The notes beneath the pieces were generated by a model that was not told the DNA's origin, ran no database searches, and was given only the letters and a program-made list of their open reading frames with translations. DNA of 64,000 bases from Bifidobacterium breve (GTDB taxonomy: Bacteria; Actinomycetota; Actinomycetes; Nanopelagicales; Nanopelagicaceae), in contig CAMAPO010000001.1 of assembly GCA_945860245.1 (NCBI GenBank), positions 1 through 64,000 of the forward strand. Direction: 5' to 3'. Shown here in pieces: positions 13,487-60,796 of this stretch. Positions within the stretch are counted from its first letter, which is position 1. Every line of letters starts with the position of its first letter. The translations under genes were made by a program, and so were the position numbers.

Positions 13487-13502
13487 GGCTTCAAATCGTT
13501 GC

Positions 13503-13518
13503 TAGCGTTTGCTCTATG
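13503..13518 (+). promoter_or_regulatory. Candidate -10 (TAGCGT) for leaderless coaD
   Basis: TAGCGT at 13503-13508 is 7 nt before the coaD ATG at 13516, with no ribosome binding site. Confidence 0.5.
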
Positions 13519-52456: not shown

Positions 52457-53602
52457 ATGGCTGAAAGTATTCTCTGTATTACAAATGACTTTGGTCCACG
52501 CGCAGGCGGTATCGAAACATTTGTGATGGGGCTTATTGAAAGACTGCCTCGTGGCTGCGTCACTGTTTACACCTCGCAGCAAGGCGATACCCGTATCTAC
52601 GACCAAGGCTGGCTAGATCAATTCGGGGTTAAAGTAATTAGAGATAGATCAAAAATTTTGCTGCCGACCCCACGAGTTTTGCAGGCGGTAAAGCAAGTAG
52701 TTACTACCGAAAATATCAGGGTTGTTTTCTTTGGTGCGGCGGCACCGTTGGCGGTTATGGCGCGTGGGTTACGAAAAGTTGGTGCTCAGAAAATAATTTC
52801 GCTAACCCACGGGCACGAAGTCTGGTGGGCCAAGCTCTGGCCATTCAATTGGGTGATGCGCCATATCGGTAACAACGTTGACCACCTTACCTACTTAGGA
52901 GATTTCACTCGCAATCAAATTTTTCGAGCGCTATCTACCAAAGCCAGATCTGCCATGGTGAAGATTGCTCCCGGAATCGATTCGACACACTTTACGCCAC
53001 AAAGTTCTGCCCTTGAATTACGGCACTCACTGGGGCTTGCCAATAAGAAAGTGATAGTTAGCGTTGGAAGATTAGTTCACCGTAAAGGGCAAGATTCGCT
53101 AATTGCTGCTCTACCTGAAATTTTGCAACACCATCCAGATGCCCATATTTTAATGATTGGCGAAGGTCCATACCGAGCACACCTGGAAAATTTGGTCGCA
53201 AAATTAGAGGTAGAAAGTTCAATCACCTTTATTGGCCGTATTCAATATGCAGATCTACCGCGCTACATCTGCACCGGAGATATCTTTGCCATGCCATCTC
53301 GCTCGCGCCTTGCCGGGTTAGAAGTTGAAGGCTTGGGAATCGTTTATCTTGAGGCTAGCGCCTGTGGACTTCCCGTTATCGCAGGCAAATCTGGAGGTGC
53401 GCCAGATGCAGTTGTCGAAGGTGAAACTGGAGTTACCGTAGATGGACGCAATCCTTCTGAAATAGCACGAGCGGTAACTTTATTATTAGATGATCCAATT
53501 AAGGCGAGAGAAATGGGCGCGCGCGGGCGCGAGTGGATTCTTTCCAATTGGGGTTGGGAAATCTGGGCGGCACAGTTCGCGGAGCTGCTGAAAGTAGATT
53601 AA
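52457..53602 (+). CDS. pimB: GDP-mannose-dependent phosphatidylinositol monomannoside mannosyltransferase (PimB'-like)
   Basis: A GT4 (GT-B fold) glycosyltransferase of 381 residues resembling PimB' (Rv2188c), which adds the second mannose in phosphatidylinositol mannoside synthesis. Shared features are NDFGPRAGGIETF (10-22), FFGAAAPLAVMARGLR, LTHGHEVWWAKLW, SVGRLVHRKGQDSL and the donor-site EVEGLGIVYLEASACGLPVIAG. It lies next to fadD, as in M. tuberculosis. The 3' end overlaps the convergent response-regulator gene by 4 bp (TTAA). Confidence 0.88.
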   Translation: MAESILCITNDFGPRAGGIETFVMGLIERLPRGCVTVYTSQQGDTRIYDQGWLDQFGVKVIRDRSKILLPTPRVLQAVKQVVTTENIRVVFFGAAAPLAVMARGLRKVGAQKIISLTHGHEVWWAKLWPFNWVMRHIGNNVDHLTYLGDFTRNQIFRALSTKARSAMVKIAPGIDSTHFTPQSSALELRHSLGLANKKVIVSVGRLVHRKGQDSLIAALPEILQHHPDAHILMIGEGPYRAHLENLVAKLEVESSITFIGRIQYADLPRYICTGDIFAMPSRSRLAGLEVEGLGIVYLEASACGLPVIAGKSGGAPDAVVEGETGVTVDGRNPSEIARAVTLLLDDPIKAREMGARGREWILSNWGWEIWAAQFAELLKVD

Positions 53603-54225
53603 GTAAGTAAATTGAGATTGCGCGCTTTATTTACCGCACCGAGCCTATTGCAAACTCCAAGCTTGCGATAAACCGCTGCTAAATGTGTTTTAAGTGTGGC
53701 TTCTGAAATAAAGAGAGACTTTGCTAAATCGCTATTGGTCCCGGGCAGAGATAGCGCCTGCAAAACAGTCAACTCTCGCGGCGTTAAGGCGCATGCTGCT
53801 TGCGAATTTTTTAGCGCGCTTACGATTCCAGGAGCGTTAAAGTTCTTTGGCTGCGCTAGCGCGCTCTTGAGGGCAGATACAAGATCATTTATTGGAGCGC
53901 TCTTCTTCACAAATGCGCTAGCACCAGCTTGCATCGCAGCGATCAGATGGCTCTCCTCATCACTCATCGTCAAGATTACGATCGCCATTTCTTGGGAGTG
54001 CTTACGGATCCATTGCACAATATCAAGACCAGAACCATCAGGAAGATGTAGATCAAGCACAACTGCATCAGGTGATTTATGTGCTATCTGTGCAAAGGCT
54101 TCAGCACGTGTTGCTGCTTCACCACAACAAGACATCCCTGCACTCTCAATTGCACGTTTAATTCCCGATCTAACTGATGGATGATCATCGACCAGTAAAA
54201 TTTCGGGAATAAGTTGCACACTCAA
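53599..54225 (-). CDS. NarL/FixJ-family response regulator
   Basis: A 208-residue regulator: receiver domain (about 7-122) with Asp13/Asp14, phospho-acceptor Asp58 (VVLDLHLPDG) and Lys in the FVKKSAP motif, then a LuxR-type HTH (about 145-200; LTPRELTVLQAL, ISEATLKTHLAAVYRKLGV). It overlaps the sensor kinase by 4 bp and forms a pair with it. Target genes are unknown; the operon includes a long-chain acyl-CoA ligase. Confidence 0.93.
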   Translation of the reverse strand: MSVQLIPEILLVDDHPSVRSGIKRAIESAGMSCCGEAATRAEAFAQIAHKSPDAVVLDLHLPDGSGLDIVQWIRKHSQEMAIVILTMSDEESHLIAAMQAGASAFVKKSAPINDLVSALKSALAQPKNFNAPGIVSALKNSQAACALTPRELTVLQALSLPGTNSDLAKSLFISEATLKTHLAAVYRKLGVCNRLGAVNKARNLNLLT

Positions 54226-54791
54226 ATAGTTATTGCGACCCGGGTTCCCGAACTCGTTGATATAAAGGTAAATACACCACCTAATTGTTCAGTTCGTTCT
54301 TTAACTCCAATTAAACCTAAACGTGAACTCTCCAAGGTCGCACCTCCTTCGCCGTTATCGCGCACCTCCAGGTAGGTGTGATTTTCAACTTGGCTTAGTT
54401 CTATTTCAATCTCGCTACCCCTAGAATGCGCAATACTATTTCGCATTAACTCAGTAGCCATTGCAGTGATTTCTAGCCCAAGCCCAGAGTCGATATCAAA
54501 TTCGGCAATCTCCAATCGCGCCAAGCGAGAACCGCAGATTTGCATTGCCATGCTGGTCAATTTCTCTTGTACCGATTCAGCGCCGGTTTCTCTGAGTTGG
54601 TAAATCTCACGCCGAACTTTTGTGATTAGTTCATCAACTTGAAAACGTAGAGAACGTATTCCTTTTCGCACAGGTTCTTGCGAATCGGTAGCAGCCAAAA
54701 GCAGATCTAATTCGTAGCCCAGCGCCACCAAGTCTTGCGCAACTCCATCGTGCAGGTCACGGGCTAATTCGAGGCGTTGATGCGTACTCAC
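54222..54791 (-). CDS. Sensorless NarL-type histidine kinase
   Basis: A short kinase of 189 residues made only of the HisKA_3 dimerisation helix with His14 (ARDLHDGVAQDL) and a HATPase_c domain (N-box ELMRNSIAHSRG, DNGEGG, GLIGVKERTEQLGG). No membrane segment or sensor domain precedes it. The start GTG overlaps the fadD stop (GTGA), so translation is coupled. The signal must come from a partner or from binding to the kinase core; coupling to fadD hints at lipid status, which is inference. Confidence 0.9.
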   Translation of the reverse strand: MSTHQRLELARDLHDGVAQDLVALGYELDLLLAATDSQEPVRKGIRSLRFQVDELITKVRREIYQLRETGAESVQEKLTSMAMQICGSRLARLEIAEFDIDSGLGLEITAMATELMRNSIAHSRGSEIEIELSQVENHTYLEVRDNGEGGATLESSRLGLIGVKERTEQLGGVFTFISTSSGTRVAITI

Positions 54792-56578
54792 TTAGAAAAT
54801 AGTTCGCTGATTTCTTTGGCAAATTCCTGAGCAATAACGTGTCGCTTGATGGATAATTTTGCCGTTAGCTGTCCGCCAGCGATAGTAAAGTCAGTTGGAA
54901 GTATGGTGAATTTACGAATTGATTCCGCCTTACTCACCGCTTTATTTGCCTCATCAACTGCAGTTTGAATTACTGCGATCAGATCTGGATCCTGAGTCAA
55001 GGTAGCAAGCGTTGCGCCATCTTTCTTATTGGCAACGATCCAAGATTTAAGTGAATCTTGATCAATTGTTACAAGGGCTGCGATAAACGGTTGATTATCT
55101 CCAACGACCACACATTGGCTAACTAACGGATGTGCGCGAAGGCGATCTTCCAGCACAGCTGGAGCAACGTTCTTGCCACCGGCGGTTACGATCAACTCTT
55201 TCTTGCGCCCGACTATAGAAAGGAACCCATCTTCATCAATCTGACCGAGGTCACCTGATTTAAACCAACGATCTTCGGTGAAGACTTCAGCATTTGCGGC
55301 GTCATTTTGCCAATAACCACGCATGACAATCGGTCCCTTAATTAAAACTTCACCATCTTCGGCAATTTTCACACTTGTGCCAGGAATTGGCTTTCCAACA
55401 GTGCCAACCTTTAGCGCTCCAGTGATATTTAAAGTCGCACCAGCGGTGGTTTCAGTAAGTCCGTAACCTTCGTAAATTGTCACGCCTGCACCACGATAGA
55501 AGTGCCCAAGGCGTTTTCCAAGCGGAGCGCCACCTGAAATGGCCGCTTCCACATTTCCACCCAAGGCGGCACGAATCTTTGAGAAGACTAGTTTATCGAA
55601 GAGCGCGTGCTTTAAAGTGAGCAGAGGATTAAAGCCGCGCTTATCCAAGGATTCACTGTATGCAATAGCAACTTCAGCAGCCTTACGGAAAATCTTTCCT
55701 TTACCCGCAGCATCTGCTTTAGCTTCAGCGCCGTTGTAAACCTTTTCAAAGATTCGAGGGACCGCAAGAACAAATGTTGGTTTAAATGATGCTAGATCTG
55801 GTTGCAAGCGGCCGACTGGATCACTGCAGTGCGCGAGGTGTAGGCCAGCGCGGATCGCTCCGATTTGCACCATGCGCCCAAAAACGTGCGCAACAGGTAA
55901 GAAGAGCAAGGTTGATCCATTTGGCTTAAGAAATAGATCGCTCGCGCCTTCAACGACATTTCCACATTCAGATAAGAAGTTGCCGTGAGTTAATTCCACA
56001 CCTTTTGGCTTACCGGTTGTTCCAGATGTGTAAATCAAAGTTGCTCGCGTCTCAGGCAGAAGCGCGCTTCTACGGCGATCAATTTCGTCATCACCAATAT
56101 GTGCTCCTGCTGTTGCAAGTACCGAAAGTACATCTTCAGTCATAGTCCAAATATGTTCGGTATGTGAAGGCAAAACAGTATTCACCAATTCGCGATGCGT
56201 TGGCGTTTCCACAATCACACCTACGGAACCAGAGTCGCTAAGTATCCAATCAACTTGCTCAGCAGATGAAGTTTCATAAATTGGAACTACACATCCACCC
56301 GCGTACCAAATTGCGAAATCGAGAATCGTCCACTCATATCTGGTACGAGCCATGATTGCGACACGATCGCCGATTTGAATACCGGCTGCGACTAGCCCCT
56401 TTGCAGTTGCACGAACTTCAGCGTCTAATTCCTGTGCGCTAACTTTCTGCCAGCCATCTCCGAGAGGGCGAGATAACATAACGCGATTAGGTTCGAACCA
56501 AGCGCGTTCAGCGATCAAATTTGTGAGGTTGCCTGAAGCGGCGGCAGGGACAAGGGCCGGGATTGAGATTTCATTCAT
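54788..56578 (-). CDS. Long-chain acyl-CoA synthetase (FadD15-like)
   Basis: An AMP-forming ligase of 596 residues that activates fatty acids to acyl-CoA. Motifs: P-loop YTSGTTGKPKG (about 181-191), GYGLTETTAG, and the A8 hinge GDLGQIDEDGFLSIVGRKKELIVTAGGKN region. Length and ends match long-chain ligases such as Rv2187 (FadD15), which sits beside pimB in M. tuberculosis too. It can feed the fadA-fadJ oxidation enzymes. It heads an operon with the histidine kinase and response regulator. Confidence 0.92.
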   Translation of the reverse strand: MNEISIPALVPAAASGNLTNLIAERAWFEPNRVMLSRPLGDGWQKVSAQELDAEVRATAKGLVAAGIQIGDRVAIMARTRYEWTILDFAIWYAGGCVVPIYETSSAEQVDWILSDSGSVGVIVETPTHRELVNTVLPSHTEHIWTMTEDVLSVLATAGAHIGDDEIDRRRSALLPETRATLIYTSGTTGKPKGVELTHGNFLSECGNVVEGASDLFLKPNGSTLLFLPVAHVFGRMVQIGAIRAGLHLAHCSDPVGRLQPDLASFKPTFVLAVPRIFEKVYNGAEAKADAAGKGKIFRKAAEVAIAYSESLDKRGFNPLLTLKHALFDKLVFSKIRAALGGNVEAAISGGAPLGKRLGHFYRGAGVTIYEGYGLTETTAGATLNITGALKVGTVGKPIPGTSVKIAEDGEVLIKGPIVMRGYWQNDAANAEVFTEDRWFKSGDLGQIDEDGFLSIVGRKKELIVTAGGKNVAPAVLEDRLRAHPLVSQCVVVGDNQPFIAALVTIDQDSLKSWIVANKKDGATLATLTQDPDLIAVIQTAVDEANKAVSKAESIRKFTILPTDFTIAGGQLTAKLSIKRHVIAQEFAKEISELFSK

Positions 56579-56637
56579 GCCCTAACGCTAGCGCCCGTCC
56601 TGAGAAAAGGGGAGAGGGGAAAAGAGTTTTTTACGGG

Positions 56638-56652
56638 TAACCTTTGGGCATG
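56638..56652 (+). promoter_or_regulatory. Candidate -10 (TAACCT) for leaderless SRPBCC gene
   Basis: TAACCT at 56638-56643 is 6 nt before the ATG at 56650, supporting that start over the TTG at 56644. Confidence 0.5.
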
Positions 56653-57087
56653 AGCGATTTCAGCAGTTCAACAATTACCATCGATTCCCCGATCTCCGAA
56701 GTCGGGGCCACCCTGTTCGCCGTAGCCTCCTATCCCGAATGGTCAGAAGCTTTTAAGAAAGTGGATGTGCTAGCCACTGATGACCAGGGTCGTGCGACGA
56801 AAGCGAAGTTAACAGTTGATGCGGGCGCTGTTAAAGATGTAGTAACTCTAGATTTTGACTGGAGCGCAGCACCAAGCAAGGTGACCTTCAGTCTTGATGA
56901 TGCCAACATCCTTACCAAGATGGATGGCGCTTATCTACTTAAGAGCTTAGGTGCGGATGCAACGTCAGTAACTTACGAGCTCTCAGTTGGATTATCTATG
57001 CCGATCCCAGCGATGATGATCGCCAAACAAGAGAAGTCAACTATCGATAGCGCTTTAAAGCAGCTTAAAGAACATTTAGAAGGATAA
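56650..57087 (+). CDS. SRPBCC (START-like) family protein
   Basis: A 145-residue protein of the polyketide-cyclase/START helix-grip fold (SSTITIDSPISEVGATLFAVASYPEWSEAFKKV is the typical beginning), similar to Rv2185c in the same position next to fadD15. Such proteins bind hydrophobic ligands. With pimB, fadD and plsC around it, a lipid-related role is plausible. It is 4 bp upstream of the glucokinase gene. Confidence 0.88.
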   Translation: MSDFSSSTITIDSPISEVGATLFAVASYPEWSEAFKKVDVLATDDQGRATKAKLTVDAGAVKDVVTLDFDWSAAPSKVTFSLDDANILTKMDGAYLLKSLGADATSVTYELSVGLSMPIPAMMIAKQEKSTIDSALKQLKEHLEG

Positions 57088-60475: not shown

Positions 60476-60796
60476 TCAATGGATTTCGTGGCTGCAGACC
60501 AATTGCCCATCTTCTCCAACTTGAAAGTGCGAGCTAGCCGCTTTAATACGGTCAACAGGAGCATCTCCAAAATGTGCGCGATACCCCATAGCCAGCAAGA
60601 CTCGGATGTTGGTATCAGTATCGGGCTTAATGTTAAAAGCCTTAGCTGATCTGGCGATGGTATTTTCAACAACTTTTTCAGTATGAGAAGTTTCTCGGGC
60701 GATTGCAGAATTTGTATTGCCTTCGCAGAGTAAGCAAAGAATTAAGTGCTCAAATGGAGTTAACTCCCGTGCCAGTGTGGCGATTCGCGTGGGCAT
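60476..60796 (-). CDS. Small stand-alone LuxR-type HTH regulator
   Basis: A 106-residue protein consisting of a LuxR/GerE-type HTH (about 11-72: LTPFEHLILCLLCEGNTNSAIA, VVENTIARSAKAFNIK) and a short tail, with no receiver or ligand domain. It carries Cys21/Cys24 inside the first helix and a C-terminal CSHEIH (Cys101, His103, His106), which could coordinate a metal or sense redox state; that is speculative. GAGAGG precedes the ATG on the minus strand. It is divergent from the enoyl-CoA hydratase gene. Confidence 0.85.
   Translation of the reverse strand: MPTRIATLARELTPFEHLILCLLCEGNTNSAIARETSHTEKVVENTIARSAKAFNIKPDTDTNIRVLLAMGYRAHFGDAPVDRIKAASSHFQVGEDGQLVCSHEIH

Follow-up and report, generated by a model that had tools for sequence, protein, structure and literature searches.

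A sensorless histidine kinase and a NarL-type regulator behind fadD in Nanopelagicaceae: a probable relic of a Tad/Flp-pilus-linked two-component system

The fadD-kinase-regulator locus

The stretch analysed here, referred to below as the window, comprises the first 64,000 nucleotides of contig CAMAPO010000001.1 (assembly GCA_945860245.1) from a genome of the family Nanopelagicaceae, the streamlined and very abundant acI freshwater actinobacteria. Three genes on its reverse strand are considered: fadD, a histidine kinase gene and a response regulator gene. The fadD gene (54788-56578) encodes a long-chain acyl-CoA ligase of 596 aa with the Pfam domains AMP-binding and AMP-binding_C_3. Its top NCBIfam match is FadD11, with a score under the cut-off, and we take fadD15 of Mycobacterium tuberculosis to occupy the same locus position. 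The kinase gene (54222-54791, 189 aa) starts with GTG and the regulator gene (53599-54225, 208 aa) with TTG. The fadD stop codon (TGA) and the kinase start lie within a 4-bp GTGA overlap (54788-54791), and the kinase stop (TGA) and the regulator start within a 4-bp TTGA overlap (54222-54225). An earlier prediction made from the same DNA (hereafter the original prediction) had placed both overlaps exactly, and had called the genes fused by translation. The overlaps suggest an arrangement for co-translation, probably with translational coupling, whereas no gene fusion is present. We infer a single transcript for the three genes, and co-expression of the pair with fadD, as proposed earlier, is very likely.

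The kinase consists of core domains only. A Pfam search returned HisKA_3 (residues 6-69, 45 bits) and HATPase_c (residues 108-188, 33.6 bits), both above cut-off, and no input, sensor or lipid-binding domain. A hidden sensor reached from another start codon further upstream was ruled out, because an in-frame stop codon directly precedes the GTG; the missing sensor is therefore genuine, and the description of the protein as minimal, soluble and sensorless holds. Alignment and sequence show the catalytic residues to be present (H14, N118, D145-NGEGG and GLIGVKER). The regulator, assigned to the NarL/DesR type by Pfam and by trees, contains Response_reg (96.4 bits) and GerE, a LuxR-type helix-turn-helix (HTH; 48.9 bits), with the acidic pair and the phospho-Asp of the receiver intact (D13/D14/D58). 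Phosphotransfer between the two proteins is predicted. No second HisKA_3 kinase was found in the host genome by profile search, and nearly all complete genomes of Nanopelagicaceae contain one such kinase each.

The type of catalytic core and regulator is shared with DesK-DesR of Bacillus subtilis, NarX/NarL, LiaS/LiaR and VraS/VraR. Matches of the window kinase in phmmer included VraS, DevS and DesK, and for the AlphaFold model of a relative with a trimmed kinase (pLDDT, the predicted local distance difference test score, 77.6), DesK chains ranked first among the structural matches in the PDB. However, DesK, NarX, LiaS and VraS have membrane or GAF sensors, whereas the window kinase begins at the helix of the dimerization and histidine phosphotransfer (DHp) domain, and sequence identity is low. 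The window pair is a sensor-stripped version of a known two-component type.

Kinase matches were found in 252 of the 296 genomes of the order. The conservation of the trio, which the original prediction had proposed to check, holds throughout Nanopelagicaceae: a comparison of fadD and kinase positions shows that, across genera, the pair follows immediately on fadD, and all 30 top-matching genomes have the order fadD-kinase-regulator, followed by the convergent pimB wherever the contig extends that far. Since gene content and order are identical in all 30, the trio is not a chance arrangement. The 4-bp overlap between fadD and the kinase gene is kept throughout the window's clade; most relatives outside it have no such overlap, and up to a few tens of bases separate the fadD stop from the kinase start. 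In most family members only about 11-20 residues of the kinase lie ahead of the His. The window kinase and regulator are under purifying selection, as judged from ratios of non-synonymous to synonymous differences (pN/pS) of 0.15-0.31 against the closest relatives, values that are rough as pS is near saturation. Across the whole set of relatives compared, both genes exceed fadD 3-9-fold in non-synonymous change (dN), and these ratios are rough for the same reason.

Orthologues in the class and erosion in the family

Outside the family, the kinase at the corresponding position is full-length (530-580 aa) and includes both membrane helices and a GAF domain. At one such locus (L203), a 532-aa sensor kinase has both 4-bp overlaps as in the window. 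The full-length kinase was traced through 297 genomes of the class, and 20 fadD-kinase intervals were examined. The usual order is fadD, often a pair of ATP-binding cassette (ABC) transporter genes, cpaB, tadZ, tadA, tadB, tadC, the kinase, the regulator, and then pimB or an M48 protease (identities by Pfam). In Nocardioides, the kinase-regulator pair closes the tad cluster, with no fadD within the region examined (e.g., Nocardioides jensenii, L039). Spacing was counted in 31 sampled class genomes outside the family that have fadD and the kinase on one contig. The distance was 5.5-13.6 kb in 21 of the 31, 2.6 kb with only ABC genes between in one, and less than 0.5 kb in nine; the two genes share a strand in 31/31. 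One rank above the family, then, the situation is largely the one named in the original prediction as refuting it, with the pair beside unrelated genes in most relatives: its orthologues end a Tad/Flp cluster, usually kilobases away from fadD. This weakens the step from fadD linkage to acyl-CoA sensing that the original prediction had taken.

The tree of response regulators included the window regulator, those of other Nanopelagicaceae, 16 Tad-linked regulators, 10 fadD-linked outgroup regulators (nine adjacent or nearly so, and one with only ABC genes between) and 14 other NarL-type regulators. One clade (98*) holds the window, family, Tad-linked and fadD-linked regulators and excludes the 14 others; within it, Tad-linked and fadD-adjacent rows interleave. 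The Tad/Flp-linked pair of Actinomycetes, with its transmembrane (TM) and GAF sensor (as at L039), thus shares the regulator clade with the window pair, as well as the order relative to fadD and pimB. The window differs in that it has no tad cluster and no TM-GAF sensor (189 versus 530-580 aa), and in that its genome has no T2SSF gene.

T2SSF genes are likewise absent from the complete genome G135, which, as the host does, retains the pair. Elsewhere in most family genomes T2SSF genes are present, and a second, divergent Tad locus was found in many Nanopelagicaceae (L277-L283), beside prfB-ftsE-ftsX where it was read; its TadA is just 37-40% identical to the fadD-linked TadA type. A Tad system still present elsewhere was considered as the target and rejected, since the loci examined hold the divergent Tad and the host lacks T2SSF. 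Because fadD abuts the kinase gene and the genome has no T2SSF gene, the window pair is described here as a descendant of a Tad regulator and not as one itself.

Within the family, 60 regions spanning the slot between fadD and pimB were compared, together with the loci examined earlier, and a LuxR/GerE HTH was found in every complete slot. The remainder of the system has eroded to different degrees. In most genera, a core kinase of about 185-205 aa is accompanied by the regulator. In one clade of the window's genus and in genus g17, which form a single clade on the PimB tree, the kinase is trimmed to about 157-164 aa: the distance from the His to the N-box is 79-81 residues instead of about 100-109, and the strand pair before the G1 box is gone. 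Some kinases of g13 also lack the G1 box. In three genomes (L127, L129 and L131), there is no kinase, and a degenerate receiver without the acidic pair is joined to a retained HTH. Separately, the kinase frame at L022 (G186) lacks an H-box, in one metagenome-assembled genome and possibly through an assembly error.

The most reduced state is a single gene (127-187 aa) that encodes a HisKA_3-like DHp hairpin leading directly into the HTH, without receiver or ATPase. It was found in genus g2, in the majority of the g11 genomes examined and in one genome of the window's genus (L132-L138, L139-L145 and L118). Pfam placed both HisKA_3 and GerE above cut-off in G097; HisKA_3 also passed it in G110 and G016, and G104 was borderline. 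Some g11 members have Tyr in place of the phospho-acceptor His or have lost this residue. One origin for all DHp-HTH fusions was rejected (approximately unbiased (AU) test, p 2.9e-73), while a shared single origin of the g2 and g11 fusions was not (AU p 0.35). To judge from these tests, the fusion arose independently in two or more lineages. Unlike junction lengths, which are no formal test, suggest further origins. Modelled by AlphaFold, a g2 fusion (pLDDT 88.6, higher than that of the trimmed kinase) consists of a helical hairpin with a LuxR-type HTH behind it. A fold search with this model returned structural matches for HTH-type chains only and none for the hairpin; the DHp assignment in the fusions therefore depends on sequence profiles. 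The window differs from the fusions in that its kinase and regulator are separate, intact genes. No description of the DHp-HTH fusions, the erosion series or the window pair was found in the literature searched, although this search was incomplete.

Origin, mode of action and rival explanations

Taken together, the pair is probably a sensor-stripped relic of a Tad/Flp-pilus-linked TM-GAF kinase system, whose unsignalled core sets the regulator and whose HTH output has been retained. Since the tad cluster separates fadD from the orthologous kinase in most of the class genomes sampled, a deletion scar is the best reading of the adjacency of fadD and kinase. The streamlined Nanopelagicaceae lineage would have lost both the pilus cluster that lay between fadD and the pair and the entire sensor half of the kinase, leaving a soluble core of DHp and ATPase and an intact NarL-type regulator, both expressed from the fadD transcript. 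The core would dimerize via its DHp domain, autophosphorylate without an external signal and so set the phosphorylation state of the regulator. The output would then track gene dosage, through co-expression with fadD, and the state of the cytosol, for example its supply of ATP or of other phosphodonors. What selection would retain is the DNA-binding output and not sensing; this output seems to be the needed part, because relatives drop the kinase, the ATPase or the receiver, but not the HTH.

Several points weigh against this reading. Two family regulators on long branches, L153 and L155, do not join the main family clade, and L155 is placed with the Tad-linked rows on a starred branch; one family-wide event of tad loss is therefore not proven. 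Regulator trees alone cannot decide between loss and insertion of the tad block. We infer loss, as repeated loss would be the simpler reading. The pN/pS values behind the purifying selection are only rough because of near-saturated pS. Finally, the signal could be provided instead by an unlinked partner protein.

Such a partner, a separate protein that would bring the signal by docking to the DHp/ATPase core, is unlikely, but it would suit a kinase that begins so shortly before the His in most members that its signalling helix has a free end, and the intact catalytic residues and purifying selection point to a regulated enzyme. No linked candidate gene for the partner is present, however, and clades without ATPase or kinase retain the HTH, so signalling is dispensable in those clades. 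We give little credence to the proposal of contact sensing, in which FadD or acyl-CoA is read by the kinase core and the regulator tunes the surrounding lipid genes. In its favour are the fadD linkage and gene order kept throughout the family, and DesK, a membrane-lipid-state kinase, being among the nearest solved relatives of the catalytic core. However, DesK senses via a membrane domain, and the window kinase has none. The adjacency to fadD arose out of an arrangement with a tad cluster in between, or at any rate alternates with it; because the fadD neighbourhood predates the loss of the sensor and is usually split by the pilus cluster, acyl-CoA sensing loses its main support. The change in kinase and regulator, which is faster than in FadD by the rough factors given above, shows no sign of a conserved contact, some family members have lost the kinase altogether and kept fadD, and no conserved operator was found. 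A comparable gene order is known from Xanthomonas, where an acyl-CoA ligase (RpfB) lies beside a two-component system for a fatty-acid signal; there, RpfC is a sensor-bearing hybrid kinase, and RpfG is an enzyme of the HD-GYP type. The likeness lies in the ligase gene beside a kinase and a regulator; no synthase for diffusible signal factor was seen at the window locus, and homology is not claimed.

It is rather improbable that the regulator still controls surface pili or DNA uptake, through the other Tad locus or competence genes. ComEC is present in 22/23 family genomes tested, including the host (G000:C3:5381-6160, outside the window), and many family genomes carry the second Tad locus. Natural transformation in the actinobacterium Micrococcus luteus is driven by Flp pili, and com expression there is also influenced by two-component genes (PMC8467076); genes for pili or DNA uptake are thus candidate targets. 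Against this, the host and G135 keep the pair without any T2SSF gene, and no binding site of the regulator was found. As a separate observation, the host combines ComEC with the absence of T2SSF (Tad/type IV pilus) genes. That the pair is a functionless, decaying pseudo-system is scarcely credible: relatives do have fragmentary kinases, degenerate receivers and a Tyr in place of the His, but the key residues in the window are all intact, its pN/pS is low even if rough, and no complete slot examined lacks an HTH gene.

Beyond the relic origin of the pair, we see an even chance that the window pair represents an early stage of a natural process that takes a two-component system apart and leaves a one-component regulator. 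The sensor would be lost first, the ATPase would then be trimmed or the kinase lost, and DHp and HTH would be fused in two or more lineages, giving a DHp-dimerized, phosphorylation-free transcription factor. That the fusions need no phosphorylation is suggested by the His-to-Tyr change in some members. The fadD-pimB slot displays the successive loss stages of one system, from membrane sensor kinase through sensorless core and trimmed ATPase to orphan degenerate regulator and DHp-HTH fusion. In the usual account, two-component systems grew out of one-component ones; the erosion series runs counter to it. It suggests that the DNA-binding output is the part of the signalling system that this abundant, streamlined freshwater lineage cannot lose. 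If they were shown to be functional, the DHp-HTH proteins would constitute a new architecture among regulators. The locus also calls for caution in deriving function from neighbours, as an overlapping, conserved operon partner was probably brought alongside by deletion of a pilus cluster. Few and streamlined two-component systems have also been described from the reduced genome of Wolbachia (PMC4426382). In the part of that report drawn on here, nearly all CckA kinases retain N-terminal transmembrane domains, which the window kinase lacks, and no DHp-HTH fusions are reported among these minimalist systems (PMC4426382).

Upstream elements and neighbouring genes

A conserved regulator site near lipid genes, as expected in the original prediction, was not found; the sole conserved element upstream of fadD is a TAGCGT box on the reverse strand (56585-56590), 6 nt before the fadD ATG, which resembles a leaderless -10 element and is the probable promoter of the operon. 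Most of the Nanopelagicaceae loci listed share it, and a few have variants. The sequence CGCTAGCGTTAG upstream of fadD was considered as an operator of the regulator and rejected, since it is conserved at leaderless -10 spacing and was judged a promoter element. A consensus scan for promoters and terminators gave counts at or under the shuffled expectation and was uninformative. The box GCTAGCGTT has 15 copies in the genome and stands at that spacing before a gene start only for fadD and coaD (window 13501-13516, forward strand), the spacing at coaD being nearly the same as at fadD.

The slot is bordered on one side by a convergent pimB-like glycosyltransferase gene on the forward strand (52457-53602), identified by Pfam and a fixed neighbour in relatives, and on the other by a divergent SRPBCC/polyketide-cyclase-like gene, also on the forward strand and identified by Pfam (56644-57087). 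On the reverse strand at 60476-60796 lies a gene for a 106-aa protein without a Pfam match, by eye a stand-alone LuxR-type HTH. In genera g5 and g7 (L153-L155), an open reading frame of 462-485 aa, membrane-protein-like by eye, sits between the regulator and pimB.

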